From: Ignavibacteriota bacterium
GTDB lineage: Bacteria; Bacteroidota; Ignavibacteria; UBA10030; UBA6906
Direction: 5' to 3'
Assembly: GCA_016218065.1 (NCBI GenBank)
Contig: JACRFA010000254.1
Coordinates: 1-37,108 of the forward strand
DNA length: 37,108 nucleotides
The position numbers and the translations under genes are program-made. Position 1 is the stretch's first letter. Each line of letters starts with the position of its first letter. The notes below the pieces were generated by a model. It made no database searches and was not told where the DNA came from. It saw only the letters and a program-made list of their open reading frames with translations. Below, one piece after another: positions 6,399 through 30,607 of the stretch.

Positions 6399-6827
6399 AT
6401 GGAAGATAACAGCGCGCAGACCGGAGCCGGCATTGCTGACCTGTTGCTGAAGTGTCACCAATTGGAACGAGAACTCGCCGGCTCTGCCGACCTCTCAGTC
6501 GATGAATTTCATTGCCTGAGCCAGCTTTACCTGCGCGCCCCAAGCTCTGCAAAGGAGTTATGCGACTTGCTGGGAGTACACCCGAGTCGCGCATCTAAAC
6601 TCCTGAATGATCTTGAAAAGCGAGGATACGTAGCGAGGGCACTCGGTCTGTCAGACAAACGAAGAGAGCGTATCACGCTTACCTCGGAAGGAGTCGTAGC
6701 CGCAAGAAGTCTGCTGCAATCCTCAGCGATTTCGGCAAGACACATGGCCGCATCACTGCCAAGCACGTCTGTGCGGCTTCTTGTTTCGACTCCCGCTTCA
6801 CCGGAAGAGCAAACGCCAGTAACCTGA
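6399..6827 (+). CDS. MarR-family transcriptional regulator
   Basis: Winged-helix regulator of about 142 aa. The core has a SAKELCDLLGVHPSRAS-type helix-turn-helix (about residues 48-64 from this start), a recognition helix leading to LEKRGYV, and the wing D-K-R-R-E-R-I-T-L-T-x-E-G. The C-terminal dimerisation helix is short and ends in a Ser/Pro-rich tail. The frame is open from a TTG at 6387, but ATG 6399 is preferred; neither has a good ribosome-binding site. It lies 20 bp upstream of the hydrogenase protease gene and probably autoregulates the operon. The ligand is unknown. Confidence 0.8.
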   Translation: MEDNSAQTGAGIADLLLKCHQLERELAGSADLSVDEFHCLSQLYLRAPSSAKELCDLLGVHPSRASKLLNDLEKRGYVARALGLSDKRRERITLTSEGVVAARSLLQSSAISARHMAASLPSTSVRLLVSTPASPEEQTPVT

Positions 6828-6847: not shown

Positions 6848-7381
6848 ATGAACATTGTGGTCATTGGTGTTGGAAACTCAATAGCCACCGACGATGGCGC
6901 GGGCATTCGAGTTGCTCAACGCCTTCGCGAGACGATTTCCGATCGACGGCTGACTATCGTCGAAAGCGAACGTGGCGGCCTTGAACTCCTGAACTTTCTT
7001 GAGGGTAGCTCAAAAGCGTATATCATAGACGCGGCGTGGACGAAGTCAGCGCCTCCGGGCACAATCACACTCATTCGAACACGTTCGCCCTATGCTGTAG
7101 AGCCGCTTCCCTCGATACATACTATCGGTCTGCGAACAGTCCTTTCGTTCGGACAGTCCATCGGCATGTCGCTTCCCGACGAGGTGATCGTTTTCACCAT
7201 CGAAGCAAAAGAGATTGAAAGATTTTCTGAAGAATGTACGCCAGAGATAGAAGCGGCGACGCGCAGAGTTTCAACCTTGCTCGCATCGGAACTGCAACAG
7301 ATGTTCGATGCCAACGCATCTCAAGAAATCGGAACCAATCGTGACTTCATCGTTAACACACTCTCCGTGGAACATATATGA
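6848..7381 (+). CDS. [NiFe]-hydrogenase maturation endopeptidase (HyaD/HycI/M52 type)
   Basis: Cleaves the C-terminal peptide of the [NiFe] large subunit after nickel insertion. Family residues visible: the start motif VIGVGN (G7, G9, N10), D15-D16-G-x-G, D61 in YIIDAAW and H91 in SIHTIGL. The nickel-sensing ligands expected from HybD-type proteases therefore correspond to D16, D61 and H91. At 177 aa it is slightly longer than most, with a C-terminal tail. AAAGG lies upstream of the ATG. Overlaps hdrC by ATGA (7378-7381). Its probable substrate is the large subunit encoded at the far end of the operon, whose C-terminal DPCxxCxxH is followed by 26 residues. Confidence 0.85.
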   Translation: MNIVVIGVGNSIATDDGAGIRVAQRLRETISDRRLTIVESERGGLELLNFLEGSSKAYIIDAAWTKSAPPGTITLIRTRSPYAVEPLPSIHTIGLRTVLSFGQSIGMSLPDEVIVFTIEAKEIERFSEECTPEIEAATRRVSTLLASELQQMFDANASQEIGTNRDFIVNTLSVEHI

Positions 7382-8064
7382 AAAGGCACACAAATCATCT
7401 CCCCGGCGTGATGACAAAAACCGAGGCTGATCTTCATCAGACCTTTTTGCACCAGGTGGAACTCATGCCCGGGGGTGAACGCATCAGTCGCTGCATTCAG
7501 TGCGGCACATGCACAGGCTCCTGTCCGGTGAGCTACGCAATGGACATCTCTCCGCGTCAGTTGATTGCGCTCTTTCGTGCGGGCGAGATGGAGCAGATCA
7601 TGCGCAGTCGGACGATCTGGATTTGCGCCTCGTGCTATTCGTGCACAACGCGCTGCCCGTCGGGCATCAAGATCACCGATATGATCTACGCGCTCAAGCG
7701 AACCGCCATCGATAAGAAAATGGAATCAGTGGCGCCGCAGGTGGTAACGCTCGCGCAACTCTACACCGAAAACCTGATGAGCTACGGCAGGCTTCACGAG
7801 GGAACGCTCATCAGAAAGTACTATATGAAAACCAACAAGCGGAAGTTCAAGGACCTGATTCCGCTGGGCAGGAAGATGTGGAAGACCAAGCGCCTCGAAC
7901 CTTTCCCGAAACGAATCAAAGATCAGAAGTCGCTTGCACGCATCATCCTCAAAGCACAAGAAATCGAAATGCGCCACATGAAAGAGAAGCGCGAGTACGC
8001 CCCAGAGTATGTTGGCTACCGCGGGCTGGGCGAGTTTGCGCTTGAAGCCAGGAAAGGAGAATGA
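7378..8064 (+). CDS. hdrC: Heterodisulfide reductase subunit C-like protein (HdrC)
   Basis: Cytoplasmic ferredoxin-like electron carrier of an HdrABC complex. Two classical [4Fe-4S] motifs: C39-x2-C42-x2-C45-x3-C49-P and C83-x2-C86-x2-C89-x3-C93-P, with the HdrC-type MDISPRQLI segment between them. The rest is a basic, helical tail of about 130 residues, longer than in many methanogen HdrC proteins and without further cysteines. It passes electrons between HdrA and HdrB. Start and stop overlap the neighbouring genes by four bases each, so tight co-translation is expected. Confidence 0.88.
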   Translation: MKRHTNHLPGVMTKTEADLHQTFLHQVELMPGGERISRCIQCGTCTGSCPVSYAMDISPRQLIALFRAGEMEQIMRSRTIWICASCYSCTTRCPSGIKITDMIYALKRTAIDKKMESVAPQVVTLAQLYTENLMSYGRLHEGTLIRKYYMKTNKRKFKDLIPLGRKMWKTKRLEPFPKRIKDQKSLARIILKAQEIEMRHMKEKREYAPEYVGYRGLGEFALEARKGE

Positions 8065-8066
8065 TT

Positions 8067-8948
8067 GTGAAATACGCCTACTATCCCGGATGCAGCCTCG
8101 AAAAAACTCAGCGGGGCTACGATGAATCGGTGAGAGAAGTCTTTGCCGCACTCGATCAGGAGTTGGTTGAGATTGATGATTGGAACTGCTGCGGAGCGAC
8201 GGTGTACATGTCGGTGAAGGAAACAGTCGCGCTCGCCGTCTCCGCCCGCAATCTCGCACTCGCCGAAAAGATGGGACTCACGATCATGGCGCCGTGCAGC
8301 TCGTGCTTCACTGTTCTCTCGAAGACGAACCGCATCATGAATTCGATTCCCGAAATGCACAGAGACGTCAATGAAGCGCTGGCGGAGGGCGGATTGAGCT
8401 ATGGCGGAAAGACGAACGTGCGTCATCCGCTCGATGTGTTGATGAACGATGTCGGCATTGAAACCATCCTCGAAAAACAAAAACGCAATCTCAACGGATT
8501 GAAGATCGCGCCATACTACGGCTGCCAGATCGTTCGTCCCGACAAGACATTCGACGATCGGGAGAATCCGGTTTTGATGGATCGACTCTTTCAACATTGC
8601 GGCGGCGAAGTCGTGTACTACCCCGTAAAAGTGCGATGCTGCGGCGGCATGCTGATGACGACGTTCGAAGACACCGCACTCAAGCTCAACAAAGAGCTGC
8701 TCGGCTGCGCGCAAGAAAACGGCGCCGACGTCATCGTCACGACTTGTCCGCTTTGCCACTTCAATCTGGAGGCGTATCAGGACAAGATCAACGACGTGTA
8801 CGGAACGAAATTCAATATCCCGATTCTCTACTTCACGCAATTGCTCGGCATCGTGCTCGGCATATCGGGTGAAAAGCTCGGACTGGATGCCGCGTTCATT
8901 CCCATGGGGAAAAAAGTTCAGGCGCTAACGGAGGCACACTATGTCTGA
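8067..8948 (+). CDS. hdrB: Heterodisulfide reductase subunit B-like protein (HdrB, two CCG domains)
   Basis: Catalytic subunit that carries two non-cubane [4Fe-4S] clusters in methanogen HdrB. Both CCG motifs are complete: C9-x31-C41C42-x34-C77-x2-C80 and C153-x37-C191C192-x34-C227-x2-C230, numbered from the start used here. The GTG at 8067 is preferred over ATG 8061 because AGGAG (8055-8059) then sits 7 nt away instead of 1 nt, and the protein begins MKYAYYPGC like typical HdrB. The fully intact cluster motifs argue for a real disulfide or other two-electron substrate, but this window names none (CoM-S-S-CoB is unlikely in a bacterium). Confidence 0.88.
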   Translation: MKYAYYPGCSLEKTQRGYDESVREVFAALDQELVEIDDWNCCGATVYMSVKETVALAVSARNLALAEKMGLTIMAPCSSCFTVLSKTNRIMNSIPEMHRDVNEALAEGGLSYGGKTNVRHPLDVLMNDVGIETILEKQKRNLNGLKIAPYYGCQIVRPDKTFDDRENPVLMDRLFQHCGGEVVYYPVKVRCCGGMLMTTFEDTALKLNKELLGCAQENGADVIVTTCPLCHFNLEAYQDKINDVYGTKFNIPILYFTQLLGIVLGISGEKLGLDAAFIPMGKKVQALTEAHYV

Positions 8949-9822
8949 CGTACCGAAACCAACCAACGGCCACAACGGTCAGGTTCGCATCGGCGTGTAC
9001 ATCTGCCATTGCGGTGTAAACATCGCAGCGACGGTGAATGTGGCTGAACTGCGCGACTTCATCGCAAAGCAGCCGGGCGTCGTGATCGCGAGAGACTACA
9101 AATTCATGTGTTCCGATCCCGGGCAACAGCTCATCAAGCAAGATATCGCTAATCTCAAAGTCAACCGCGTTGTAGTTGCGGCATGCTCGCCGCTCATGCA
9201 CGAACTGACGTTCCGGCTCGCCGCAGAGAGTGCAGGCGTGAATCGCTATCTGGTACAGATCGCGAACATTCGCGAACACTGCTCCTGGGTTCATGATGAC
9301 AGAGAAGCGGCGACGAAGAAAGCGATGGCGCTCGTCAACGCGGCCGTCAGGCGCGTTGCGTTGCACAAGCCTCTGCAAATCACGAAGCAGCCGCTCAACA
9401 AGGCAACCCTGATTGTCGGAGCAGGCATCGCGGGAATTCAGGCGGCTCTGGAAGTCGCCAACGCCGGCCATCACGTTTATCTCGTCGAACGCGAGCCCTC
9501 CATCGGCGGACGCATGGGAACGTTCGACAAAACATTCCCGACACTCGATTGCGCCGCGTGCATTCTCACGCCGAAGATGGTTTCCGTCGGCCATCGAAAA
9601 GACATTACACTCATGAGCTACGCTGAAGTCGAGAACGTCTCAGGCTATATCGGGAATTTCAAAGTGAAGGTGCGCAAGAAGGCGCGTTTCGTCGATGCCG
9701 AGAAGTGCACGGGTTGCGGCCAGTGCTGGAGCAATTGCCCGGCAACGCGCATCCCCTCGGGCCGCGCAATTTACATGGGCAAACAGCTCGTGAACGAGAT
9801 CTCCACGAAGCCAAAAGACTGA
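8941..9822 (+). CDS. hdrA: N-terminal half of HdrA (split flavoprotein)
   Basis: 293 residues against about 650 for complete HdrA. Present: the N-terminal HdrA cluster domain with cysteines C22, C24, C57, C82 and C114 (CHCG...MCSDPG...AACSP-x-HE...REHCSWVH), the FAD/Rossmann fingerprint GAGIAG (160-165), the ERE-x-x-IGGRMG flavin loop and the HdrA-typical TLDCAACILTPKM. Then comes one ferredoxin motif, C256-x2-C259-x2-C262-x3-C266-P, and the protein ends 27 residues later. The remaining HdrA segments are encoded by the chimera at 16554-18314. A GGAGG site precedes the ATG and the gene overlaps hdrB by 8 bp. This is a clean domain-level split, not a frameshift, because no downstream frame here continues HdrA. 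Confidence 0.88.
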   Translation: MSDVPKPTNGHNGQVRIGVYICHCGVNIAATVNVAELRDFIAKQPGVVIARDYKFMCSDPGQQLIKQDIANLKVNRVVVAACSPLMHELTFRLAAESAGVNRYLVQIANIREHCSWVHDDREAATKKAMALVNAAVRRVALHKPLQITKQPLNKATLIVGAGIAGIQAALEVANAGHHVYLVEREPSIGGRMGTFDKTFPTLDCAACILTPKMVSVGHRKDITLMSYAEVENVSGYIGNFKVKVRKKARFVDAEKCTGCGQCWSNCPATRIPSGRAIYMGKQLVNEISTKPKD

Positions 9823-9828
9823 GCCGTG

Positions 9829-10209
9829 ATGATGCTGAGAGAAATACGGGAGATTCTGAGCGCAGACATGTGCACCGGTGAAGAGCACTTGGATATGAGA
9901 ATACAGTTCGGCTCTGCTTCCGACCTCATGAGCGACGTGCTGGCATTCTCACGCTCAGGCGCGTTGTTGCTCACTGGCCTGATGAACGTGCAAACCATCC
10001 AGACGGCATTCATTGCTGATATCAGCGCGGTTGTGTTTGTGCGCGGCAAGCGACCGACTGACGAGATTTGTGCATTGGCAAAAGAAAAAAGAATTCCACT
10101 GCTCAGCACGCCATACTCGATGTATGAAGCATGCGGCAGACTCTACTCCAAAGGACTTCTCTCCACCATGAAGCCGGTCTGTGAAGGAACCGTTCAGGAG
10201 GAGGAATGA
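9829..10209 (+). CDS. DRTGG-domain protein, first copy
   Basis: Small protein of 126 aa resembling stand-alone DRTGG domains found in clostridial and Thermotoga-type hydrogenase gene clusters. It has a mixed alpha/beta pattern with ALLLTGLMNVQT, VVFVRGKRPTDEICALAKEKRIPLL-type strands and a final YSMYEACGRLY helix. It is about 30-35% alike by eye to the second copy at 11973-12341. No catalytic residues are evident; a regulatory or ligand-sensing role is inferred from its neighbours. GTG 9826 is also possible; the next codon, ATG 9829, is used. Lies 6 bp after the hdrA half. Confidence 0.7.
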   Translation: MMLREIREILSADMCTGEEHLDMRIQFGSASDLMSDVLAFSRSGALLLTGLMNVQTIQTAFIADISAVVFVRGKRPTDEICALAKEKRIPLLSTPYSMYEACGRLYSKGLLSTMKPVCEGTVQEEE

Positions 10210-10212
10210 TCG

Positions 10213-10638
10213 ATGTCCGCATCCTTCTCACGATCATTCACGATTGAAGGACGAGACTTCTTGAATGCGGGAAGGGCATCGACGCAGATCAAAACCATAC
10301 TGAAGGAGCTGAGCGTCGATCCGGCAATCATCCGGCGGGTTGCCATCGCTTCGTATGAAGCGGAAATGAATGTCGTGATGTACGCGACGCGAGCGAAACT
10401 GAAATTCACAATGTCGGCGAGCGCAATCAATCTTGAAATCGATGACGAAGGACCCGGAATCCCTGACATCACGCTCGCAATGCAAGAGGGATACTCGACG
10501 GCAACGTCGCAGATGCGAGAACTGGGATTCGGCGCCGGCATGGGGTTGCCGAACATGAAGAAAAACTCTGATGAGTTTGTGATCGAATCGGCTGTCAGCA
10601 AAGGCACGCGATTAACCATGACAATTTACATCAACTGA
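10213..10638 (+). CDS. Anti-sigma-factor-type HATPase (RsbW/RsbT-like)
   Basis: GHKL ATP-binding domain of 141 aa, the serine-kinase/anti-sigma type. Motifs: N-box YEAEMNVV (about residues 48-55), G1 box D-D-E-G-P-G-I-P (about 77-84) and G2 box GFGAGMGLPNMKK (about 104-116). A standalone domain with no receiver or sensor. In related hydrogenase clusters such a protein stands beside DRTGG and PHP proteins; its partner is unknown. The ATG at 10213 follows a GAGGAGG site at the end of the DRTGG gene, 3 bp away. Confidence 0.82.
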   Translation: MSASFSRSFTIEGRDFLNAGRASTQIKTILKELSVDPAIIRRVAIASYEAEMNVVMYATRAKLKFTMSASAINLEIDDEGPGIPDITLAMQEGYSTATSQMRELGFGAGMGLPNMKKNSDEFVIESAVSKGTRLTMTIYIN

Positions 10639-10641
10639 ACA

Positions 10642-11976
10642 ATGGGCGCAGACTTTCGATCCATAGTATTTGATCGAGAACGCTGTCAGGGACAGATGGC
10701 GTGTATGCACGTGTGTCCCACGCATGCCATCCGCGTTCGCATGCGCAAAGCCACGCTGCTGCGCGACCGCTGCATCGATTGCGGCGAGTGTGTGAATGCC
10801 TGCGCCAATGCTGCCGTGCTGCCGCAAACAAGCTCGTTCCGCGACTTCGCGCGGTTTAAACATACCATCGCGATTCCGTCGCCCGTGTTGTACTCGCAGT
10901 TCGGCAAAGATGTTCCGCCGTGGGCAATTCTCGCTGCGCTCAAACGCATTGGCTTCAATGATTCATACGATGCGGCGTGCGCGTCCGAATCCGTCAGCAT
11001 CGCGATCCAGGAATATCTCGACTCGGTGGATTCTCCTCGCCCGCTCATCTCGCCGTTCTGTCCGGCCATCGTCAGATTAGTGCAGGTCCGCTACCCGAAT
11101 CTCCTCGAGCATCTCATCCCCATCGAGTCGCCGATGGAGATTGCAGCGCGCGAAGCGAAGCGGCTCGCGATGAAAAACCGCGGATTGCGGGAAAGCGACA
11201 TCGGCGTCATCTACATCACGCCCTGCCCCGCAAAAGCGCTTGCCATCAAGAATCCGTCGCGCAAGAAGCACTCGTTCGTCGATGGAACAATCGCGATCTC
11301 CGACATCTTCCCGAACGTCCTCCAGGCTCTTCCGGATGTGCTGACGGGCGAGACAGGGAGCGAGATACTTGGGCTCGGACTCGGGTGGCCGATTGTCGGC
11401 GGGCAGGTTGCATGTCTCAAAGCTGAGGATTGTTTATCGGTCGGCGGACTGGATCATGCGGTAAGAATTTTTGAAGAGATCGAAAACGGCAAGCTCCGCG
11501 ACATTCAATACGTCGAAGTTCACTCCTGCCCCACGGCGTGCGTCGGCGGATCGCTCACCGCGGAGAACGCGTACATCGCCCGCGGCCGCGTGCTGAAGAT
11601 GGTGCAGCGCTTCGGCGGAAAGCCATGTCAGGATCGCGAGAAAATCAGAGAATTGTACCGCAAGAATTTCTTCTCGCTGCCAGGAAAAATTCCTCCCATT
11701 CCGATTCAGCCGTTGGACAGCAATGTCTCAAAGGCGCTGGGCAAATTGCAGCAGAAGCAGGAGCTGTACGAGAGTCTCCCAAAAATCAACTGCGGCGCGT
11801 GCGGCTCGCCAACCTGCGAAACATTTGCGGAAGACGTTGTGAGGAACACGGCAGACACGGACGATTGCATTTTCATCGCCATGAAAAACTTCGAGACGCT
11901 ATCGGCGAACCTTCTCGAAAAAGTTATGGCGCACAGCAAGCGAGTGCGCGTTATGAATCCTGCGAGTCAACTATGA
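10642..11976 (+). CDS. [FeFe]-hydrogenase-like protein (putative sensory type)
   Basis: 444 aa. Domains in order: a 2-cluster ferredoxin (about 10-60), an [FeFe]-hydrogenase large-subunit-like domain (about 70-345), and a C-terminal 4Fe-4S (Fes) domain with C384-x2-C387-x4-C392...C409. The four H-cluster-type cysteines are there: C140 (SPFCPA), C195 (TPCPAK), C296 and C300 (SCPTACVGG). But the residue before C140 is Phe where catalytic enzymes have the proton-relay Cys (TSCCP). The first ferredoxin motif also lacks one cysteine (C15, C21, C25; Gln18 in the gap), while the second (C44, 47, 50, 54) is complete. I infer a redox or H2 sensor rather than an efficient hydrogenase. No HydE/F/G maturases are in the window. 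The following DRTGG gene overlaps by ATGA. Confidence 0.78.
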   Translation: MGADFRSIVFDRERCQGQMACMHVCPTHAIRVRMRKATLLRDRCIDCGECVNACANAAVLPQTSSFRDFARFKHTIAIPSPVLYSQFGKDVPPWAILAALKRIGFNDSYDAACASESVSIAIQEYLDSVDSPRPLISPFCPAIVRLVQVRYPNLLEHLIPIESPMEIAAREAKRLAMKNRGLRESDIGVIYITPCPAKALAIKNPSRKKHSFVDGTIAISDIFPNVLQALPDVLTGETGSEILGLGLGWPIVGGQVACLKAEDCLSVGGLDHAVRIFEEIENGKLRDIQYVEVHSCPTACVGGSLTAENAYIARGRVLKMVQRFGGKPCQDREKIRELYRKNFFSLPGKIPPIPIQPLDSNVSKALGKLQQKQELYESLPKINCGACGSPTCETFAEDVVRNTADTDDCIFIAMKNFETLSANLLEKVMAHSKRVRVMNPASQL

Positions 11977-12341
11977 CAGTCCGCGAGATCAAACAACAGC
12001 TGGGGCTTTTTTTGTGTTGGGGGGATGAAAAGCTGGAGCACAAAGTCACGGGCGGCTATGTCGGCGATCTGCTGAGCGACGTGATGGCAAACAGCAAAGC
12101 CGGAAATGTGTGGATCACAATGCAGACTCACGTGAACATTGTGGCCGTTGCCGTGCTGAAAGAGCTTGCGGCGATCATCATCGTCAACGGGCGTCATCCG
12201 GCGGAAGAGACACTCAAGAAAGCCGCCGAAGAGAAAGTCCCGATCTTGAGCAGCACGCTCTCGGCGTTCGATGTTGCAGGGCGACTGTACTTTCTTGGAG
12301 TAGGCAAGGCGCGAGCCGATGCTGAGAGAATTCCGGACTGA
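11973..12341 (+). CDS. DRTGG-domain protein, second copy
   Basis: 122-aa protein of the same type as 9829-10209, with VNIVAVAVLKELAAIIIVNGRHPAEETLKKAAEEKVPILSS-type strands and an AFDVAGRLYFLG-like end. The real start is ATG 11973, overlapping the stop of the [FeFe]-like gene (ATGA); a longer in-frame reading from 11538 would run against that gene. Overlaps the PHP gene by 23 bp. The two copies flank the [FeFe]-like sensor, which suggests a single signalling unit. The function of the family is not established. Confidence 0.7.
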   Translation: MTVREIKQQLGLFLCWGDEKLEHKVTGGYVGDLLSDVMANSKAGNVWITMQTHVNIVAVAVLKELAAIIIVNGRHPAEETLKKAAEEKVPILSSTLSAFDVAGRLYFLGVGKARADAERIPD

Positions 12342-13095
12342 TCTGCACGTGCATACGTGCCTGTCTCCGTGCGGCGATCTCTCGATGTCGCCGCGGAAGA
12401 TTGTCGCAGAAGTTCTTCGACAAGGAATTAATATCATCGCCGTCACCGACCACAACTCCGCCGCGAATATCGGCGCAGTCACCAAGGCGGCAGAAGGCGC
12501 GCCGGTGGTCGTACTTGCCGGCATGGAAATATGCACACGAGAAGAAGCTCATGTGCTCGCGATCTTTGACAATGAGACTCCTGCACTGAAACTGCAATCC
12601 GTTGTGTACAATGCTCTCTCCGGCGTCAACAATCCGGATGTGTTCGGGCTTCAGGTGATGGCGAATGAGCTGGATGAAGTTGAGGGATTTGAAGAACGGC
12701 TGCTCATCGGCGCAACCGACCTGAGCGTGGAAGACGTTGTTCGCGCAGTTCACAAACTTGGCGGACTCGCCATCGCGGCGCACATCGACCGCGAAAGCTA
12801 CAGCGTCATCGGACAGCTCGGCTTCATTCCGCGAGCCGTCACCTTCGACGCGCTGGAAGTTTCGGAACTGACGAGCGACAAGGACGCACGCACACGGTTC
12901 AGCGACTACATGCGCTACGTCTTCGTGAGAAACTCGGACGCGCATACCATCGATCGCATCGGCGCTCAGACAACGCGGTTTCTCTTAGAGGCGCCAACCG
13001 CGAGCGAAATCGGGAAGGCGCTCCGGTGCGAAGACGGAAGAAAGCTCGTGAGCGTCGAAACGAGAATCGACAATCGGCAATCGATTGTCCGATAG
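12319..13095 (+). CDS. PHP-domain phosphoesterase
   Basis: Metal-dependent PHP-fold hydrolase of 258 aa. Motifs: D8-L-H-V-H-T at the start, T-D-H-N-S (about 43-47), E in GMEICTREEAHVLA (about 70-83), A-A-H-I-D (about 153-157) and N-S-D-A-H-T (about 195-200), together the expected metal ligands. Likely acts on a nucleotide or phosphate ester (RNase AM or histidinol-phosphatase-like relatives), but the substrate is unknown. Such proteins recur beside DRTGG and HATPase genes in HydABC-type clusters. Begins inside the preceding DRTGG gene (23-bp overlap). A 163-bp non-coding stretch follows. Confidence 0.8.
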   Translation: MLREFRTDLHVHTCLSPCGDLSMSPRKIVAEVLRQGINIIAVTDHNSAANIGAVTKAAEGAPVVVLAGMEICTREEAHVLAIFDNETPALKLQSVVYNALSGVNNPDVFGLQVMANELDEVEGFEERLLIGATDLSVEDVVRAVHKLGGLAIAAHIDRESYSVIGQLGFIPRAVTFDALEVSELTSDKDARTRFSDYMRYVFVRNSDAHTIDRIGAQTTRFLLEAPTASEIGKALRCEDGRKLVSVETRIDNRQSIVR

Positions 13096-13258
13096 TAGTC
13101 GGAGGATGTTGTGGGGCTTCCGATCGGTCGCCCCGTCAAACCGATGGTGCATGCCGCGACGCCTAACAGTCAACTTCGGCGCAAGGGCAGTCGCCCTTTG
13201 CCCGGCAGAGTAGAAAGATGAGTTTGCGTTACGTCAGTGATTTAGTATTTGAGTGAAC
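13096..13258. other. Intra-operon non-coding segment with dyads
   Basis: Largest gap in the operon. It contains a GGGGC/GCCCC dyad (13113-13117 with 13130-13134) and an AAGGGC-AGTC-GCCCTT hairpin (13183-13188 with 13193-13198). Neither is followed by a T-run on the plus strand. Possible roles are an internal promoter for the NuoE-onward block or an mRNA processing or stability element; I cannot decide. Confidence 0.35.
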
Positions 13259-13798
13259 ATGGAAGATCTGTCGCTACACATACTCGACATCGCCGAAAAC
13301 TCGATCAATGCCGGCGCAACATTGATCGACATCGTGATTCGCGAACAAAAGACCCAAGACATGCTGACGCTGGAAATTCGGGACAACGGAACAGGAATGG
13401 ATGACGCAACGGTTGTGAGCACGAGAAATCCATTCTACACAACACGCACAACGAGGAGAATCGGACTGGGGTTGCCGCTCCTCGAAGAAGCAACACGCGC
13501 AGCAGACGGCATGCTGGAAATCGTTTCGCGCACGGGTGCAGGGACAGACATTCGGGCAACATTCCGGCTCAGCCATATCGACCGGAAGCCGCTCGGAGAC
13601 ATGGCGGCAACCATCGTCATGCTCGTCGCCGGCAATCCCGACATCAACTTCACGTACCGACATGAGCACGAGAGTGAGACGTTCACGTTCAGCACGAAGG
13701 AAATCCGATTGAAGTACCCGGGACTCGACTTCAACTCACCCGAGACGCTTTCGTTCATCAGAGATTACATCAGGGAATACACAGCAAGTTTCTCATAG
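13259..13798 (+). CDS. HATPase protein of the hydrogenase cluster
   Basis: Stand-alone GHKL ATPase. The start MEDLSLHILDIAENSI with N-box (E..SINAGA), G1 (D-N-G-T-G-M-D) and G2 (RIGLGLPLL) boxes makes up the first ~100 residues; a conserved ~80-residue tail ends in a helix (FIRDYIREY). The frame is open from GTG 13253, but ATG 13259 gives the family-typical N-terminus and has GAGTG upstream. In other bacteria this family is regularly adjacent to nuoE-like genes of bifurcating hydrogenases. Its biochemical role is not known. Confidence 0.78.
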   Translation: MEDLSLHILDIAENSINAGATLIDIVIREQKTQDMLTLEIRDNGTGMDDATVVSTRNPFYTTRTTRRIGLGLPLLEEATRAADGMLEIVSRTGAGTDIRATFRLSHIDRKPLGDMAATIVMLVAGNPDINFTYRHEHESETFTFSTKEIRLKYPGLDFNSPETLSFIRDYIREYTASFS

Positions 13799-13815: not shown

Positions 13816-14289
13816 ATGGACATTGACGTTCAGGCAAAAGCCACAGAGGTGCTCGACCGCTGGGGATCGAAGCCGGAGAACATCATCGAGATCATGCACG
13901 ACATCCAGAACGATCTGAACTATCTGCCGCGGGATATCCTCTTCGAAATCTCGAAGCAGGCGAACATCCCGTTGAGCCGCATCTACAACGTGGCGACGTT
14001 CTACAACGCCTTTAGTTTGAAGCCGAAGGGAAAACACCGCGTGTGTGTGTGCATGGGAACGCCCTGTCACGCGCTCGGTGCGCCGCGCATCGTCAGCGCG
14101 CTGGAGCGTGAGCTCGGCATCAAGTGCGGCGACGTCACGCCCGACATGCAATTCAGCGTCGAGACGAGCGGCTGCGTCGGCACCTGCGGACTTGCGCCCG
14201 TCGTCGTGATCGGCGACGACCTCTACGGACCGCTCACGGTCGATGGCGTCTCGCGACTCGTGAAGAAGTATCAATCGAAGAAGAAGTGA
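13816..14289 (+). CDS. NuoE/HydC-like [2Fe-2S] subunit
   Basis: Small NADH-dehydrogenase-type subunit (157 aa): a helical N-terminus (about 10-70) with the YLPRDIL...ISRIYNVATFY-type pattern, and a thioredoxin-fold [2Fe-2S] domain with C79-x4-C84 (VCMGTPC) and C120-x3-C124 (SGCVGTCG). Transfers electrons between the NuoF flavin and the Fe-S chain of the complex. Has a strong AAGGAG site upstream and starts 17 bp after the HATPase gene. Confidence 0.9.
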   Translation: MDIDVQAKATEVLDRWGSKPENIIEIMHDIQNDLNYLPRDILFEISKQANIPLSRIYNVATFYNAFSLKPKGKHRVCVCMGTPCHALGAPRIVSALERELGIKCGDVTPDMQFSVETSGCVGTCGLAPVVVIGDDLYGPLTVDGVSRLVKKYQSKKK

Positions 14290-14302: not shown

Positions 14303-14686
14303 ATGCCGAAACTCAAGATCGAAGATCTCGACAAGATTGCCGTACAACAGCAACGGAAGATGAACGTCCGCGAAGGCGCGGGCAGAGCGAAGATCACCGT
14401 GCACATGGGAACATGCGGCATCGCCGCGGGCGCACGAACCATCATGACTGCATTTCTGCAAGAGATCGAAACGAACAACGTCACCGACGTTATCGTCACC
14501 ACGTCGGCGTGCGCGGGCTTATGCAGTCGCGAGCCGATGGCGACGGTCGAACTGGTCGGGCAGGCGCCAGTGAAGTACGTCGATCTCACCGATGAAAAAG
14601 CGCGGAAGATTTTCAAAGAGCACATTGTAGCGGGCAAGTTCGTCCAGGCCTACGCGCTCTCCATCGGCAGCGAGCGAATCCAGTAA
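14303..14686 (+). CDS. Thioredoxin-like [2Fe-2S] ferredoxin
   Basis: 127-aa protein. A coil-like N-terminus (1-28) leads to a thioredoxin-like [2Fe-2S] domain: MGTCGIAAGA (C38) and TTSACAGLCSREP (C70, C74). Only three cysteines are in the cluster region, as in many members beside HydB/NuoF genes, so cluster binding may involve another residue or be partial. Likely an accessory electron carrier or assembly partner of the neighbouring NuoF-like subunit. GAGGAG upstream; 13-bp gap to nuoE. Confidence 0.82.
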   Translation: MPKLKIEDLDKIAVQQQRKMNVREGAGRAKITVHMGTCGIAAGARTIMTAFLQEIETNNVTDVIVTTSACAGLCSREPMATVELVGQAPVKYVDLTDEKARKIFKEHIVAGKFVQAYALSIGSERIQ

Positions 14687-14708: not shown

Positions 14709-16541
14709 ATGAAACCGTTCAGACTTCAGGTCATGGTGTGCGCCGGAACCGGGTGCGTGTCGAACCACTCGACGGAGATCAAGGCGGCACTCGACAAGGA
14801 AATCGCGAAGCACAAACTCGAGCATGAAGCCGAAGTAGTGTACACCGGCTGCAACGGCTTCTGCGGCGCCGGACCCATCGTGGTCGTCCAGCCGGACGGC
14901 ATCTTCTACCAGCTCTTGAAACCTGCCGACGTCGCTCACCTCGTCGAAGAGCATCTGCTCAAAGGACGACCGGTGAAGAAGCTGATGTACACGCCGCCGG
15001 CGGAGAAGACGCCGATCCCGAAGATGTCGGATATTCCGTTCTTCGCCGATCAGACGCTTATCGCGTTGCGAAACCGCGGCATGATCGATCCGGAAAAGAT
15101 CGACGACTACATTGCGCGCGGCGGCTACCGCGCGCTCGCAAAAGTACTCACCGAAATGACGCCCGATCAAGTTCTCAACGAGATCAAAGCCTCGGGGTTG
15201 CGCGGGCGCGGCGGCGGCGGGTTTCCCACGGGCATCAAGTGGGAATCGTGCAAAAGGTCGCACGGCGACACGAAGTACGTCATCTGCAATGCCGATGAGG
15301 GCGACCCCGGCGCATTCATGGATCGCAGCATCATCGAAGGCGATCCGCACGCGGTTATCGAAGGCATGATCATCGGCGCGTACGCGATCGAAAAAGTGCG
15401 GCAAGGATACATTTACGTCCGCATGGAGTACCCGCTCGCGATCAAGCGCTTCCAGATCGCTATCCAACACGCTCGCGAGTACGGACTGCTCGGCGCGAAT
15501 ATCTTCGACACCGGATTCGACTTCGACATCTTTGTGCGACGCGGCGCTGGAGCGTTCGTGTGCGGCGAATCCACAGCGTTGATGGCATCCGTCGAAGGAA
15601 AGCCGGGCGAGCCGCGCGCCAAGTACGTTCACACTGTCGAGAAGGGATTGTGGGATTGTCCGACGTGCCTCAATAACGTCGAGACGTGGGCGAACGTCCC
15701 GCAGATTGTCTTGAAGGGCGCGAAGTGGTTCTCAAGCATCGGCACCGGCGACGTTTCGACCGACGCGTGGGGCGGCAGCAAAGGCACGAAGGTGTTCTCG
15801 GTCGCGGGCAAAGTGAACAACACCGGACTCGTCGAAGTGCCGATGGGTATTACGCTGCGCGACATCGTGTACAAGGTCGCGGGCGGAATTCGCGATGGAA
15901 AGAAGTTCAAGGCAGTGCAAACCGGGGGACCGTCGGGCGGTTTCATTCCCGAAAGTCTCATCGACCTGCCCGTCGATTACGAAGAGCTGACGAAGGTCGG
16001 CTCGATGATGGGATCAGGCGGCATGGTTGTGTGCGACGAAGAGAATTGCATGGTCGATATGGCGAAGTACTTTCTCGCTTTCACGCAGGCAGAGTCGTGC
16101 GGAAAGTGTACGCCGTGTCGTGAGGGAACGAAGCGCATGCTCGACATCCTCGATCGCATCACCGTCGGTGAAGGGAAAGAAGAAGATCTTCTCGTGCTGG
16201 AAGATTTGTCGAACGCGATCATCGAGTCGTCGCTCTGCGCGCTCGGAGGCTCGGCGCCAAACCCGGTGCTCACGACGCTGAAGTATTTCCGCGAAGAGTA
16301 CGAAGCGCACGTGAAAGACAAGAAGTGCCCGGCGCACGTTTGTCGCAAGCTGCTCACGTTCACCATCGACGAAAAGATCTGTCTGGAAATCGGTCACGGC
16401 TGCGACGTGTGCAAGAAGCATTGCACCGACGGCGCCATCATCGGCGAAAAGAAAAATGTGCACTACATCGACCCGATGAAGTGCGGCAAGTGCGGCGCCT
16501 GCTATGACGTCTGCAACTTCAAAGCTATCCACGTTGAGTAA
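14709..16541 (+). CDS. NuoF/HydB-like NAD(H)- and FMN-binding subunit
   Basis: 610-aa flavoprotein of the HydB/NADH-quinone-oxidoreductase F family. Domains: N-terminal thioredoxin-like [2Fe-2S] (C11, C16, C48, C52); the NADH/FMN core with GRGGGGFPTG (166-175), CNADEGDPGAF (193-203) and CGESTALMASVEG (285-297); the NuoF [4Fe-4S] site C464, C467, C470 and C510; and a C-terminal ferredoxin with C592-x2-C595-x2-C598-x3-C602. The preceding cluster site is unusual: C558-x6-C565-x2-C568-x3-C572 instead of CxxCxxCxxxC. Catalyses NAD(H) oxidation or reduction in the complex; coenzyme preference (NAD or NADP) cannot be read here. The start has AAGGA upstream. Confidence 0.9.
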   Translation: MKPFRLQVMVCAGTGCVSNHSTEIKAALDKEIAKHKLEHEAEVVYTGCNGFCGAGPIVVVQPDGIFYQLLKPADVAHLVEEHLLKGRPVKKLMYTPPAEKTPIPKMSDIPFFADQTLIALRNRGMIDPEKIDDYIARGGYRALAKVLTEMTPDQVLNEIKASGLRGRGGGGFPTGIKWESCKRSHGDTKYVICNADEGDPGAFMDRSIIEGDPHAVIEGMIIGAYAIEKVRQGYIYVRMEYPLAIKRFQIAIQHAREYGLLGANIFDTGFDFDIFVRRGAGAFVCGESTALMASVEGKPGEPRAKYVHTVEKGLWDCPTCLNNVETWANVPQIVLKGAKWFSSIGTGDVSTDAWGGSKGTKVFSVAGKVNNTGLVEVPMGITLRDIVYKVAGGIRDGKKFKAVQTGGPSGGFIPESLIDLPVDYEELTKVGSMMGSGGMVVCDEENCMVDMAKYFLAFTQAESCGKCTPCREGTKRMLDILDRITVGEGKEEDLLVLEDLSNAIIESSLCALGGSAPNPVLTTLKYFREEYEAHVKDKKCPAHVCRKLLTFTIDEKICLEIGHGCDVCKKHCTDGAIIGEKKNVHYIDPMKCGKCGACYDVCNFKAIHVE

Positions 16542-16553
16542 CTGGAGCGAATC

Positions 16554-18314
16554 ATGGTCACGATCAAAATCGACAACCACGAAGTTCAGGTTCCCGAAGA
16601 CACTCCGATTCTGAAAGCCGCGGAGAAAGCCGGCGTCTGGATACCGACGCTCTGCTACTCCGACCTGGTTGAGCCGTACGGCGTCTGCCGACTCTGCATT
16701 GTGGAGGTGGTGCGCGGAAAGCGAAGCCGCGTCGTCACCTCTTGCAACTATCCGGTGCGTGAAGGCATTTCCGTCCTCACCAACTCGCCGAAAATTCAGT
16801 GGCTGCGCAAATCCATCATGGAGTTGATGCTCTCGCGCTGGCCCAACGTGAAGGTGGTGAAAGATCTGGCAAAGCAGCTCGGCGTCGAGAAGCCGTCGTT
16901 CATCAGCCTGGAGCGAGACGAGGCGGAAGACGCGTGCGTCCTGTGCGGCAAGTGCGTGCAAGTCTGCAAGGACCTCGTGAAGGCTGAGGCGCTTGGCTTC
17001 GCACACCGCGGCATCAAGCGTGAAGTTGTTCTGCCGTTCGGCGTCAACTCCGAGCGATGCGTTGTATGCGGCGCGTGCGTTAAGGAATGCCCGACCGGCC
17101 ACGTGAAGATGGTCATCGAGGACTATCGGGGCAAGAAGCCGGAGTTCACGCTCGGACCCAAGACTGCAATCTACGTCCCATCGTTGCAAGCAGTGCCTCG
17201 AGTTCCAGTCATCGACACCGAGTCATGCATCCATTTCGAAACCGGCGGATGCGAGACCTGCGCCAAAGTGTGCGAACCGAACGCCATCAACTATGACATG
17301 AAAGATGAAGTGCAGGAGATCGAAGTCGGACAGATTCTCGTCGCAACGGGATACGACGTCTTCGATGCAACACACATGGCGCAATACGGCTACGGCAGGC
17401 TCGACAACGTGTACAGCTCACTCGAGTTCGAGATGCTGCTCAACTCTACCGGCCCGACGGGAGGCAAGGTTCAGATGAAGAACGGCAAAGAACCCCGCTC
17501 GGTCGGCATCATTCATTGCATCGGTTCTCGCGACGCCAACCATCATCCGTACTGCTCGCGTGTCTGCTGCATGTATGCACTCAAGTTCGCGCACCTCGTG
17601 CACGACCGGACGAAGGCAGCCATCTATCAATTCTACATCGACATGCGCGCCTTCGGAAAGGGATACGAAGAGTTCTACTCGCGTCTGCTGGATGAAGGCA
17701 TAACGATGATCCGGGGAAAAGCGGCAGAGGTTGCCGAAGGATACTGGACGGACAACAACGAACGAACGCTGCTCATCCGTTGCGAAGACACGTTGATCGG
17801 AAAGTTCCGCGAGATTCCTGTTGACATGCTCGTGCTCTGCAACGCCATCGAGGCGCGGCATGACTCCGACCAGGTGCGAAAGCTCTTCTCGATCAGCAAG
17901 AGTCCGGACGGATTCTTCCTCGAGCGTCATCCGAAGCTCGATCCGACATCAACAACAACTGACGGCGTCTATATCGCCGGCTGCGCGCAGGGACCAAAGG
18001 ATATCCCGGACACGGTTGCGCAAGCAGGTTCTGCGGCGGCTCGTATTCTCTCCCTCATCTCCAAAGGCGAGGTGGAAATCGATCCGGTGCGTGCGATGGT
18101 GCAGGAGGAATTCTGCAGCGGCTGTCGCATCTGCAACAATCTGTGTCCGTACGGAGCGATCGAATATCTCGAAGAGAAGAAAATCTCACACGTCAACGAA
18201 GCACTCTGCAAAGGATGCGGCACTTGTGTTGCGGCCTGTCCATCATCGGCAATGACGGGATACGGCTTCACCGATGCGCAAATTCTTGCCGAGCTTGACG
18301 GAATACTCATTTAG
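16554..18314 (+). CDS. Chimera: NuoG/HydA-type ferredoxin region fused to C-terminal half of HdrA
   Basis: 586 aa. N-terminal part (1-190): a [2Fe-2S] plant-ferredoxin fold (C34, C45, C48, C64) then two [4Fe-4S] motifs (C128-x2-C131-x2-C134-x3-C138; C169-x2-C172-x2-C175-x3-C179). The His-Cys cluster usually found between them is absent. From about residue 204 (TAIYVPSLQAVPRVPVID) the protein is HdrA: an inserted-ferredoxin cluster C225-x7-C233-x2-C236-x3-C240, CIGSRD (322), YCSRVCCMYALK (333-344), FAD-contacting GVYIAGCAQGPKDIPDTVAQ (471-490) and the C-terminal 2x[4Fe-4S] domain (C521/524/527/531; C552/555/558/562). It supplies just what the 8941-9822 protein lacks. It stands where hydA stands in HydABC operons. 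GGAG precedes the ATG; 12 bp separate it from nuoF. Confidence 0.9.
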   Translation: MVTIKIDNHEVQVPEDTPILKAAEKAGVWIPTLCYSDLVEPYGVCRLCIVEVVRGKRSRVVTSCNYPVREGISVLTNSPKIQWLRKSIMELMLSRWPNVKVVKDLAKQLGVEKPSFISLERDEAEDACVLCGKCVQVCKDLVKAEALGFAHRGIKREVVLPFGVNSERCVVCGACVKECPTGHVKMVIEDYRGKKPEFTLGPKTAIYVPSLQAVPRVPVIDTESCIHFETGGCETCAKVCEPNAINYDMKDEVQEIEVGQILVATGYDVFDATHMAQYGYGRLDNVYSSLEFEMLLNSTGPTGGKVQMKNGKEPRSVGIIHCIGSRDANHHPYCSRVCCMYALKFAHLVHDRTKAAIYQFYIDMRAFGKGYEEFYSRLLDEGITMIRGKAAEVAEGYWTDNNERTLLIRCEDTLIGKFREIPVDMLVLCNAIEARHDSDQVRKLFSISKSPDGFFLERHPKLDPTSTTTDGVYIAGCAQGPKDIPDTVAQAGSAAARILSLISKGEVEIDPVRAMVQEEFCSGCRICNNLCPYGAIEYLEEKKISHVNEALCKGCGTCVAACPSSAMTGYGFTDAQILAELDGILI

Positions 18315-18376
18315 AAGACCTCACCCTAAGGCGGGGCGAAGTCCATAGAGCATGAACATGGAAAGGTCAATTGACA

Positions 18377-18835
18377 ATGGCATTTGAACCGAAGATCGTT
18401 GGATTCTTATGTAATTGGTGCTCGTACACGGGCGCTGATCTGGCCGGCGTTTCGCGCATCAAGTCGGCGCCGAACATGCGCATCATTCGCACGATGTGCA
18501 GCGGTCGCGTCGATCCGGCATTCATCCTCAAAGCATTTCAGCTTGGCGCCGATGGCGTCGTGGTCATGGGATGTCATTTGGGTGATTGTCATTATCAGGA
18601 AGGCAACTACAAAACAATTCGGCGCATTCCCTTCCTCAAAAAACTCATCGAGCAATTCGGTATCGATCCGCGCCGCCTGCGACTCGAATGGGTCTCGGCC
18701 TCGGAAGGAGATCGCTTCGCCGAAGTTGTGAATGAGTTCACGCAAGAGATGCGCACGCTCGGCCCGCTCAAACTTCCCGTTCACGAGCTGATGGGCAAGA
18801 ACGGCGAGCGCGCCAAACACGCTGTGCATGAATGA
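18377..18835 (+). CDS. mvhD: MvhD-like hydrogenase iron-sulfur subunit
   Basis: Small [2Fe-2S] protein (152 aa) that links MvhAG to HdrA in methanogens and related bacteria. Family signatures: IVGFLCNWCSY (C12, C15), TMCSGRV (C41) and VMGCHLGDCHY (C66, C71), ending with the RLEWVSASEG block. TTG 18371 is in frame but ATG 18377 is preferred, with AAAGGT upstream. The 62-bp gap from the chimera is one of the larger ones in the operon. The HdrA it should dock to is divided between two genes here. Confidence 0.92.
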   Translation: MAFEPKIVGFLCNWCSYTGADLAGVSRIKSAPNMRIIRTMCSGRVDPAFILKAFQLGADGVVVMGCHLGDCHYQEGNYKTIRRIPFLKKLIEQFGIDPRRLRLEWVSASEGDRFAEVVNEFTQEMRTLGPLKLPVHELMGKNGERAKHAVHE

Positions 18836-18857
18836 TCGTATCGCAAGGAGAACACTC

Positions 18858-19832
18858 ATGGCAAAACCGAGATTAGCACTCTATTGGGCGGCAAGCTGCG
18901 GCGGTTGTGAGATCGCTGTGCTCGACGTGCAAGAGAAAATCCTCGACATCGCAAACGCATTCGATATTGTGTTCTGGCCCGTCGCAATGGATTTCAAATA
19001 CGACGACGTCAGACGCATGGATGATAAGAGCATCGACATCTGCTTGTTCAACGGCGCTATCCGCAACTCCGAAAACAACGAGATCGCCGAGCTGCTTCGC
19101 AAGAAGAGCAAGGTCCTCGTTGCGTTCGGTTCGTGTTCGATGGAAGGCGGCATTCCGGGACTCGCAAATCTGACGACGAAGGACGACATCCTGAAATTCG
19201 TGTACAAAGACTCGCCGTCGACCGTCAGTACGAATGGCGGAACGTACCCGCAAACGCACACGAAGATGCCCGAAGGCGAGATCGAGATTCCGGAGATGTG
19301 GGACACCGTGAAGTCGCTCGATCAGGTTGTCGATGTTGAGTATTACATTCCGGGATGTCCTCCGCAGCCGGAGCAAATCTGGAATGTGGTTTCGTACATC
19401 CTGAGCGGACAGCCGCTTCCACCGAGCGGCGCAATACTCGGCGCAGGCGAAAAGTCGTGTTGCGACGAATGCACTCGCACGAAGTCGGAGAAGAAGCTGA
19501 AACAGTTCTACCGTCCGTTCGAAATTCAGGCGAAGCCGGATGAGTGTCTTCTCGAACAGGGCATCGTCTGCATGGGGCCTGCCACGCGCGACGGATGCGG
19601 CGCTCTCTGTCCGAAGGCGGGCATGCCCTGCCGCGGCTGTTACGGACCGCCGCCGAACGTCAGCGATCAAGGCGCGAAGATGATCAGCGCGCTCAGCTCG
19701 GTGATCGATGCGCACGAAGCGGATGAGATCGACCGCATCCTCAACCAGATCGCCGACCCGATCGGAACGTTCTATAGATTTTCACTCGCTCATTCTCTCT
19801 TGCGAAGGGTAGATAAACATGAAACACATTAA
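18858..19832 (+). CDS. mvhG: [NiFe]-hydrogenase small subunit, Mvh type
   Basis: Electron-transfer subunit (324 aa) of a group 3 cytoplasmic [NiFe] hydrogenase. Proximal-cluster cysteines are at C14/C17 (SCGGCE), with GSCSMEGG and PGCPPQPEQ downstream. A C-terminal ferredoxin-like part with many cysteines (SCCDEC, CMGPATRDGCGALCPKAGMPCRGC) provides the further clusters. No Tat signal, as expected for a cytoplasmic enzyme. The longest frame begins at 18828 inside mvhD, but ATG 18858 follows AAGGAG and gives the normal MAKPRLALYW start. Its 3' end overlaps the large-subunit gene by 14 bp. Confidence 0.93.
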   Translation: MAKPRLALYWAASCGGCEIAVLDVQEKILDIANAFDIVFWPVAMDFKYDDVRRMDDKSIDICLFNGAIRNSENNEIAELLRKKSKVLVAFGSCSMEGGIPGLANLTTKDDILKFVYKDSPSTVSTNGGTYPQTHTKMPEGEIEIPEMWDTVKSLDQVVDVEYYIPGCPPQPEQIWNVVSYILSGQPLPPSGAILGAGEKSCCDECTRTKSEKKLKQFYRPFEIQAKPDECLLEQGIVCMGPATRDGCGALCPKAGMPCRGCYGPPPNVSDQGAKMISALSSVIDAHEADEIDRILNQIADPIGTFYRFSLAHSLLRRVDKHETH

Positions 19833-24489: not shown

Positions 24490-24490
24490 G

Positions 24491-28440: not shown

Positions 28441-28450
28441 ATTTTTTCCA

Positions 28451-28690: not shown

Positions 28691-28694
28691 GGGA

Positions 28695-30515: not shown

Positions 30516-30557
30516 GAAACCCCTTGGTTGTTTCTGATGGCAAGACTCGATAACAAA

Positions 30558-30587: not shown

Positions 30588-30607
30588 CACTCCCGTGTTC
30601 ATACGGT

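Follow-up and report, generated by a model that had tools for sequence, protein, structure and literature searches.

The locus lies in a 37,108-nucleotide stretch of contig JACRFA010000254.1 from an Ignavibacteriota bacterium, referred to here as the window. Profile searches of the window identify six genes, all on the + strand and arranged as DRTGG1–HATPase1–FeFeL–DRTGG2–PHP–HATPase2, in agreement with the block of DRTGG, HATPase, [FeFe]-like, DRTGG, PHP and HATPase genes that a first-pass annotation had described. The features of this cassette are as follows.

9826..10209 (GTG 9826) or 9829..10209 (ATG 9829), +: DRTGG1, stand-alone DRTGG domain (PF07085, 32.0 bits against a cut-off of 25.2)
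10213..10638, +: HATPase1, SpoIIAB/RsbW-like ATPase, probable Ser kinase (HATPase_c_2; TIGR01925, 50.1 bits)
10642..11976, +: FeFeL, group D (M2e)-like "sensory" [FeFe]-hydrogenase homologue (Fe_hyd_lg_C, 98 bits; PF04060)
11973..12341, +: DRTGG2, second DRTGG domain (PF07085, 29.4 bits)
12319..13095, +: PHP-family phosphoesterase (PF02811, 36.8 bits)
13093..13258, strand not given: dispersed 157-bp repeat in the PHP/HATPase2 gap
13253/13259..13798, +: HATPase2, GHKL ATPase without a histidine-acceptor domain (PF02518, 48.9 bits)

Neighbouring cassette genes overlap or lie a few bases apart, as in the 4-bp overlap of FeFeL and DRTGG2, with the single exception of the 157 bp separating PHP from HATPase2. 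This gap consists of the dispersed repeat, which recurs elsewhere in the genome as 18 further partial copies at 73–86% identity and is missing from relatives, where PHP and HATPase2 are adjacent (G069, G121 and G090). An NtrC-type gene pair neighbours the cassette operon. Control by sigma-54 through this pair was considered and rejected, −24/−12-like sites numbering 30 where shuffled sequences predict 37.

A cassette inside a split hdrA

The surrounding operon encodes Hdr-, Nuo- and Mvh-type subunits on both sides of the cassette.

6848..7381, +: NiFe hydrogenase maturation protease, HycI family (PF01750, 35.5 bits)
7378..8064, +: HdrC-like 4Fe-4S subunit (Fer4_8/Fer4_17)
8061..8948, +: HdrB-like subunit, two CCG domains (PF02754, 94 bits)
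8941..9822, +: HdrA N-terminal half (NF040770 positions 1–256 of 777, 366 bits)
13816..14289, +: NuoE / HydC / BfuC (PF01257, 152.7 bits)
14303..14686, +: thioredoxin-like 2Fe-2S protein (PF01257, 25.0 bits), likely HydD-like by gene order
14709..16541, +: NuoF / HydB / BfuB (top solved relatives, bifurcating HydB chains 7t2r_B and 7q4v_B)
16554..18314, +: BfuA N-terminus fused to the HdrA C-terminal half (FeFe_hydrog_A6 and HdrA2 matches)
18371..18835, +: MvhD (PF02662, 181.5 bits; HdrA2 647–774)
18828..19832, +: NiFe hydrogenase small subunit, MvhG/VhuG-like (NF045875, 234 bits, under the cut-off of 450)
19819..21282, +: NiFe hydrogenase large subunit, MvhA/VhuA-like (NF041785, 390 bits, under the cut-off of 800)

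The 777 positions of the HdrA2 model are spread over three genes, with 1–256 upstream of the cassette, 262–639 in the fusion protein and 647–774 in the separate mvhD. On the HdrA chain 8rvu, the N-terminal piece aligns to residues 12–266 and the C-terminal piece to residues 276–652. Within the fusion, residues 2–185 match FeFe_hydrog_A6 1–206, the N-terminal Fe-S domain of a NuoG/HydA-type subunit, and residues 197–583 carry the HdrA portion; profile search of this protein finds no HydA-type H-cluster domain after the BfuA N-terminus, the HdrA half standing in its place. Because the HdrA C-terminal half follows nuoF, the cassette and nuoEF together lie inside a split hdrA. The position between hdrA and nuoE given in the first-pass annotation is thus correct, but the gene upstream encodes no more of HdrA than its N-terminal half, and the Mvh-type subunits downstream bear out the association of the block with a [NiFe] enzyme.

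NuoF aligns to 7t2r_B over its length, including the 2Fe-2S N-terminus, the C-terminal ferredoxin domain and the B2-cluster His. The residues at Acetomicrobium mobile C438, H525, C531 and C536 are conserved, while the C476 position is occupied by Thr, and both Cys and Thr are on record there (PMC8880783). By these subunit features, NuoEF/HydBC is predicted to form a Bfu-type core that would bifurcate electrons between NAD, ferredoxin and a third partner.

Occurrence and relatives of the operon

Among 149 sampled genomes of the class Ignavibacteria, all eight split-HdrA loci carry the cassette, and split-HdrA loci with the cassette also occur in Sumerlaeota, Aminicenantes and Acidobacteriota; many genomes in these comparisons are MAGs. 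This recurrence of the order across genomes and phyla rules out a chance joining in one strain. The distribution is nonetheless patchy, as two sampled genus-mates and two sampled family-mates are without the cassette. In clostridia, a near-identical order precedes [FeFe] HydABC, as the earlier annotation had proposed and as gene-order comparison and published M2e gene tables (PMC3561251) agree. Specifically, Acetivibrio mesophilus (L101) has DRTGG1–HATPase1–FeFeL–DRTGG2–PHP, nuoE, HATPase2, 2Fe-2S protein, nuoF and hydA, so that relative to the window nuoE and HATPase2 are swapped and HydA carries an H-cluster domain where the window has the HdrA half; in Clostridium (Acetivibrio) thermocellum, the M2e gene Cthe_0335 lies upstream of HydABC, Cthe_0340-0342 (numbering of PMC3561251). 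Formate-dehydrogenase (Fdh)-type Bfu operons contain the cassette as reduced sets, and the association is therefore not with hydrogenases only. Since its contexts are [FeFe], [NiFe]/Hdr and Fdh, what the cassette tracks is the bifurcating NuoEF (Bfu) core and not any single catalytic metal. A NuoF homologue is also encoded in 19 of the 20 sampled genomes whose cassette sits apart from a complete Bfu operon.

Every part of the methanogen HdrABC-MvhADG system is recognisable in the window operon, but HdrA is here in two parts, separated by other genes that span about 6.7 kb. The NiFe-HydABCSL of A. mobile (PMC8880783) and the Bfu family (PMC9304861) likewise combine a HydABC-type core with a [NiFe] hydrogenase replacing the H-cluster domain, together with accessory HisK and HydD genes; the window differs in having HdrABC, MvhD/G/A, the fusion of BfuA to an HdrA half and five further signalling genes. 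HATPase2 is the HisK of HydABC operons. The shared order and the HydA-type N-terminus retained on the HdrA half fit descent from a HydABC cluster, as the first-pass annotation suggested, although the replacement of hydA which it envisaged would have been limited to the H-domain. The group-C-rooted FeFeL tree and the NuoF tree recover clean single-origin groups and give no direction of descent, and a monophyletic FeFe side is not rejected on the rooted FeFeL tree (p-AU 0.617).

FeFeL residues and maturases

FeFeL contains two Fer4 domains, the Fe_hyd_lg_C domain and the C-terminal FeS domain, and profile search detects no PAS domain in it. The H-cluster cubane ligands C140, C195, C296 and C300 are kept, as are the cysteines of the C-terminal cluster motif Cx2Cx4Cx16C (384, 387, 392 and 409), and all eight are invariant in 21/21 NiFe-type and 22/22 FeFe-type FeFeL sequences. 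In contrast, F139 occupies the position of the proton-relay cysteine C299 of CpI, T193 that of M353, and the first N-terminal cluster motif lacks one Cys, with Q18 instead. The C299 position is F/Y in 16/21 NiFe-type sequences against 1/22 of the FeFe type; the fourth Cys of the first N-terminal cluster is gone in 18/21 NiFe-type proteins, and all 21 have Lys at the CpI K358 position.

By motifs and gene order, the protein matches the putative sensory [FeFe] hydrogenases of group D (M2e). TamHydS of Thermoanaerobacter mathranii, a member of this group (PMC8163306, PMC13104023), has the same two N-terminal cluster motifs, H-domain and Cx2Cx4Cx16C motif and no PAS domain, and in group D generally C299 is not conserved and M353 is replaced by Ser/Thr (PMC8163306). 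FeFeL of the window differs from TamHydS in its undetected HydF/HydG, Phe at C299, His at M497, the missing first-cluster Cys and its [NiFe] operon. Hydrogenase activity is on record for the published group D enzyme, which speaks against the redox-controller reading set out below. H2 does not reduce the conserved C-terminal cluster of TamHydS (PMC13104023). Deletion of hfsB, a group C relative, alters fermentation products and adhE expression (PMC5707799), and in published gene tables the sensory hydrogenases of group D (M2e) precede bifurcating hydrogenases by about five genes, a position from which a regulatory link was suggested (PMC3561251).

The window genome (97.5% complete) yields no HydF over the cut-off and no HydG match, and the same holds for eight other genomes of the class with completeness of 97–100% (six NiFe-type, two Fdh-type). 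HydF and HydG are two of the proteins that build the hydrogen-reacting metal site, and FeFeL is therefore treated here as a homologue rather than a functional hydrogenase. Across types, HydF is present in 1/21 NiFe-type, 0/5 Fdh-type and 8/12 FeFe-type genomes, and HydG agrees where checked. As the maturases are undetected and the [2Fe] pocket is altered, FeFeL in the window lineage is probably unable to react with H2. Residue 139 was rejected as a straightforward indicator that H2 chemistry has been lost, because exceptions run both ways: Aminicenantes NiFe-type proteins have Ala/Ser/Val at the C299 position, yet lack HydF, whereas two Acidobacteriota have Phe there, yet encode HydF and HydG. 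Pooled Fisher tests relate HydF presence to residue 139 (p 0.004) and Cys18 (p 2.6e-6), an association that is suggestive only, since the NiFe and Fdh types fall into a single clade with some of the others, kinship confounds the residue changes, and independent-pair tests hold at most two informative pairs.

Partner proteins and a putative redox switch

HATPase1 has its best NCBIfam match in SpoIIAB (TIGR01925), under the equivalog cut-off of 135 bits, and is related to 1til/1l0o both by sequence and by fold, the latter in the modelled structure of a naturally fused DRTGG1-HATPase1 protein. It has the SpoIIAB/RsbW (Bergerat) fold with intact ATP motifs, including the N-box E/N, and residues E49, N53 and the DxGxG motif are invariant in 71/71 relatives. 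In the same model, the fold neighbours of DRTGG1 are 2ioj and the CBS-DRTGG structure 3l31. DRTGG1-HATPase1 fusions occur in eight genomes from FeFe, Fdh and other contexts, and PHP-HATPase2 fusions in two Acidobacteriota. Seeming DRTGG-HATPase fusions in L085 and L090 were discarded, as the N-termini are out of frame, and a seeming FeFeL loss in G141 reflects a contig that stops after DRTGG2. The usual counterparts of SpoIIAB-type switches are a sigma factor and a STAS protein, but domain search of the block finds neither among its proteins; the partner of HATPase1 instead appears to be a DRTGG protein. The partner switching raised in the first-pass annotation thus gains the fold, the ATP motifs and the fusions, without the customary partners. 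The PHP metal ligands H10, H12, D44, H45, E70, H78, H155, D207 and H209 are invariant in 60 relatives, and the nearest solved relatives include the metal-dependent phosphoesterase 3e0f and the exoribonuclease 7ug9. The HATPase2 AlphaFold model (pLDDT 91.9) is nearest to MutL and histidine-kinase ATPase domains.

Collectively, we consider it about evenly balanced whether the cassette is an on-board Fe-S redox controller of the Bfu core, with which it travels. The [4Fe-4S] clusters of FeFeL would sense the cytoplasmic redox state, either as reduced ferredoxin or as a backlog of electrons on the bifurcating enzyme, and FeFeL conformation would govern HATPase1 as an ATP-dependent kinase acting with DRTGG1. 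DRTGG2, PHP and HATPase2 may form a return arm that resets the signal, and the output could set how active the bifurcating complex is, how far it is assembled or how strongly it is expressed. The sequences themselves show the gene content and its conservation, the split HdrA, the fusions, the conserved motifs and the lack of HydF and HydG; the redox input, the phosphorylation, the partner switch and the output are what we infer here.

It is unlikely, if far from negligible, that the cassette instead builds or repairs the bifurcating core, with FeFeL as a Nar1/IOP1-like cluster carrier without an H-cluster, the GHKL ATPases as chaperones and PHP/DRTGG as accessory factors. The cluster cysteines retained where HydF/HydG are absent, the NuoF homologues accompanying nearly all detached cassettes and the existence of chaperones among GHKL ATPases are compatible with such a role, and Feng et al. 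allow HydD, HydP and HisK a part in "maturation and/or regulation" (PMC8880783). However, HATPase1 is closest to SpoIIAB/RsbW rather than to chaperones, PHP enzymes cleave phosphoesters, and the three-gene Thermococcus sibiricus Nfn-BfuABC (Tsib1517-1519) was expressed in Pyrococcus furiosus with measured activity (PMC9304861), so that assembly of this Bfu core did not need a cassette of its own, host homologues aside. A second-messenger system, in which HATPase/DRTGG proteins sense or make a nucleotide signal that PHP degrades, appears quite improbable: no GGDEF, DAC or RelA-type synthetase domain is found among the six proteins, against the complete PHP metal-ligand set, the relatives 3e0f and 7ug9, matches of PHP to nucleoside 3',5'-bisphosphate phosphatase and RNase RNM models far under their cut-offs, and the DRTGG domain in the regulatory region of a nucleotide-controlled CBS pyrophosphatase (3l31). 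We know of no proven ligand of the DRTGG domain itself.

Two further readings concern FeFeL. As an electron-transfer subunit, it would be a ferredoxin docking unit with the small proteins structural, which its several sets of Fe-S cysteines and its gene inside the operon would allow; the purification of A. mobile NiFe-HydABCSL without HydD and HisK (PMC8880783, PMC9304861) and the location of FeFeL and HATPase1 away from Bfu genes in L075, L078 and L087 make this very unlikely. That FeFeL still senses H2 here, its H-cluster supplied by other, unidentified maturases, has slightly less to commend it even than that: the cubane cysteines and the Lys at K358 persist and group D enzymes function without C299 (PMC8163306), but HydF/HydG go undetected in the nine near-complete genomes, the C299 position is aromatic in most NiFe-type proteins and the first-cluster Cys is mostly missing.

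A broader form of the redox-controller reading is tentative and on balance doubtful: an H2-blind FeFeL redox sensor with a DRTGG/SpoIIAB switch would control a supercomplex joining two bifurcating sites, HdrA and NuoEF, to the [NiFe] hydrogenase, born by insertion of a Bfu operon and cassette into hdrA, giving two HdrA subunits. The split-HdrA operon predicts an enzyme that joins two kinds of electron bifurcation and is conserved in several phyla. The natural fusions point to DRTGG1-HATPase1 and PHP-HATPase2 as candidate protein pairs, and FeFeL homologues without detectable HydF/HydG separate a signalling function from H2 chemistry. Comparing FeFeL proteins with and without these maturases could reveal the signal-carrying clusters, which bears on the stimulus and the signalling route of the group D "sensory" hydrogenases.

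Operon layout and the divided HdrA

The signalling cassette lies between an hdrA gene and nuoE, and the arrangement proposed in the first-pass annotation holds, with all six genes present on the + strand in the stated order. The relevant features are as follows.

6387-6827: MarR-family protein, a candidate transcriptional regulator, immediately ahead of the operon, starting at a TTG or further downstream
8941-9822: partial hdrA
9826-13798, + strand: cassette of DRTGG1, HATPase1 (SpoIIAB/RsbW-like ATPase), FeFeL ([FeFe]-hydrogenase-like Fe-S protein), DRTGG2, PHP phosphoesterase and HATPase2 (second GHKL ATPase)
13093-13258: dispersed repeat separating PHP from HATPase2; 18 further partial copies lie elsewhere in the genome
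16554-18314: fused gene
21681-26479, - strand: double-receiver protein, NtrC-type sigma-54 regulator and Cache sensor kinase, facing the operon
26719-30602, - strand: methionine synthase domains over two genes, a homocysteine/pterin part and a B12/activation part

The cassette is preceded by genes for a hydrogenase protease, hdrC, hdrB and the partial hdrA, and followed by nuoE, a 2Fe-2S thioredoxin-like gene, nuoF, the fused gene and mvhD/G/A. Five cassette genes overlap or almost abut, the exception being a 157-bp gap ahead of HATPase2, which consists of the dispersed repeat and is absent from the relatives compared. A Cache kinase/NtrC pair similar to that facing the operon adjoins NuoEF and the cassette in a Zixibacteria locus (L060); sigma-54 sites showed no enrichment.

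The gene first annotated as hdrA does carry HdrA sequence, but covers only positions 1-256 of HdrA2 (NF040770 model, 777 long) rather than the whole protein. The fused gene opens with the N-terminal Fe-S domain that group A6 [FeFe] hydrogenases carry (positions 1-206), and its remainder corresponds to HdrA2 262-639. Mapped onto one solved HdrA chain, the pieces from the two genes correspond to residues 12-266 and 276-652; the signalling block and NuoEF core are thus nested inside a former single HdrA. In the class-mate G081, HdrA is a single unbroken chain of 1174 aa (L155, 1850-5374) that has gained a GltD/NfnB-like NAD(P)-binding domain in roughly the same loop; insertions may thus have struck this site repeatedly, making it a possible hot spot.

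The [FeFe]-like protein and the other cassette proteins

By architecture and motifs, the window FeFeL is a group D (M2e) homologue (PMC8163306): it lacks a PAS domain, carries a C-terminal Cx2Cx4Cx16C motif, and shows replacement of C299 and, by Thr, of M353 (CpI numbering). Grouped by the partner enzyme of the electron-bifurcating NuoEF/HydBC (Bfu) core, NiFe- and FeFe-type proteins invariantly retain the four cubane and four C-terminal cysteines, and one cubane Cys is His in two Fdh-type proteins. His occupies the CpI C499 position in Fdh-type G061, G001 and L121. Phe/Tyr replaces C299 in 16/21 NiFe-type versus 1/22 FeFe-type proteins, and 3/21 versus 22/22 retain the fourth Cys of their first N-terminal cluster, contrasts that are confounded by ancestry.

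In the window genome no HydF scored over its cut-off, and no HydG was found at all. In the sampled sets HydF occurs in 1/21 NiFe-type, 0/5 Fdh-type and 8/12 FeFe-type genomes, and HydG gives the same picture (35 genomes tested), some absences being attributable to MAG incompleteness; the eight genomes of the class whose completeness is known (97-100%), six of NiFe type and two of Fdh type, match the window genome in these absences. FeFeL is likely a redox protein whose H2 chemistry has been lost.

HATPase1 adopts the SpoIIAB fold (TM 0.85 to 1til, normalised on the target's length) with invariant ATP motifs. In a model of the DRTGG1-HATPase1 fusion (pTM 0.69), the DRTGG part matches 2ioj and the CBS-DRTGG pyrophosphatase; the domains are good and the linker weak, so no DRTGG1/HATPase1 interface is claimed. 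Eight genomes, from FeFe, Fdh and other contexts, have DRTGG1 naturally fused to HATPase1, and two Acidobacteriota have PHP fused to HATPase2, which suggests two working pairs. PHP retains all metal ligands. HATPase2 has an additional C-terminal subdomain and lacks the histidine acceptor; its place in the gene order is that of HisK in HydABC-type operons, and the HisK product is absent from the A. mobile enzyme as purified (PMC8880783, PMC9304861).

The best-supported scheme is one in which, we infer, FeFeL would receive a redox input and relay it to the DRTGG/SpoIIAB-like pair, PHP/HATPase2 would reset the signal, and the output would act on the bifurcating complex. Knock-out of HfsB, a group C relative, gives a regulatory phenotype (PMC5707799); kinases and bifurcating hydrogenases are known to be encoded next to M2e genes (PMC3561251). 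Less well supported are readings of the cassette as an assembly set, as a second-messenger system, as having a structural or electron-transfer role, or as a true H2 sensor.

Distribution and origin of the cassette

The split-HdrA gene, scored where the query matched start to end at >=68% identity or at both ends on a broken contig, occurs in 8/149 genomes of the class (G000, G005, G011, G060, G069, G090, G121, G141). Each of these genomes also has the cassette, the G141 contig stopping inside it. Its distribution is patchy, since it is missing from the two genus-mates and two family-mates sampled. The same arrangement recurs in Ignavibacteria/Bacteroidetes, Sumerlaeota, Aminicenantes and Acidobacteriota MAGs in the named-genome scan, which was seeded with FeFeL, so cross-phylum frequencies are not estimates.

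The FeFeL tree unites NiFe, Fdh and some other types in a single clade (SH-aLRT 100), with clostridial FeFe types outside it; rooting on group C sequences is compatible with an ancestral FeFe side and with a derived one. The NuoF tree shows a single NiFe-type clade. Compared with intact HdrA the split form is the derived one, and the insert keeps the gene order of a clostridial HydABC operon except that the H-domain is missing. This favours a Bfu operon having inserted into hdrA, and that operon may have been of the [FeFe] or of another Bfu type.

Clostridia carry DRTGG1-HATPase1-FeFeL-DRTGG2-PHP, then nuoE-HATPase2-2Fe-2S-nuoF-hydA, with HydA Pfam-verified in L101 and assigned elsewhere by size and match range. 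Formate-dehydrogenase-type (Fdh-type) BfuA, the HydA-type subunit, comes with a smaller set; this type is verified in G001 and L069 and inferred for G061/L121, and L093 and L117 are placed in it by the tree only. A Myxococcota locus (L064, 4072-6340), in which NuoEF and the cassette adjoin GCV_H-domain proteins, one fused to a BfuA-like N-terminus, is possibly a Bfu type with a different partner. The first five genes lie away from Bfu genes in L078, L087, L109 and L116, and a NuoF homologue is found elsewhere in 19/20 genomes with such or similar detached cassettes. Collectively, the FeFe-, NiFe- and Fdh-type contexts and these detached cases indicate that the natural unit is a cassette of five genes together with the HydABC-associated HATPase2, and that this unit tracks the NuoEF (Bfu) core and not one catalytic metal.
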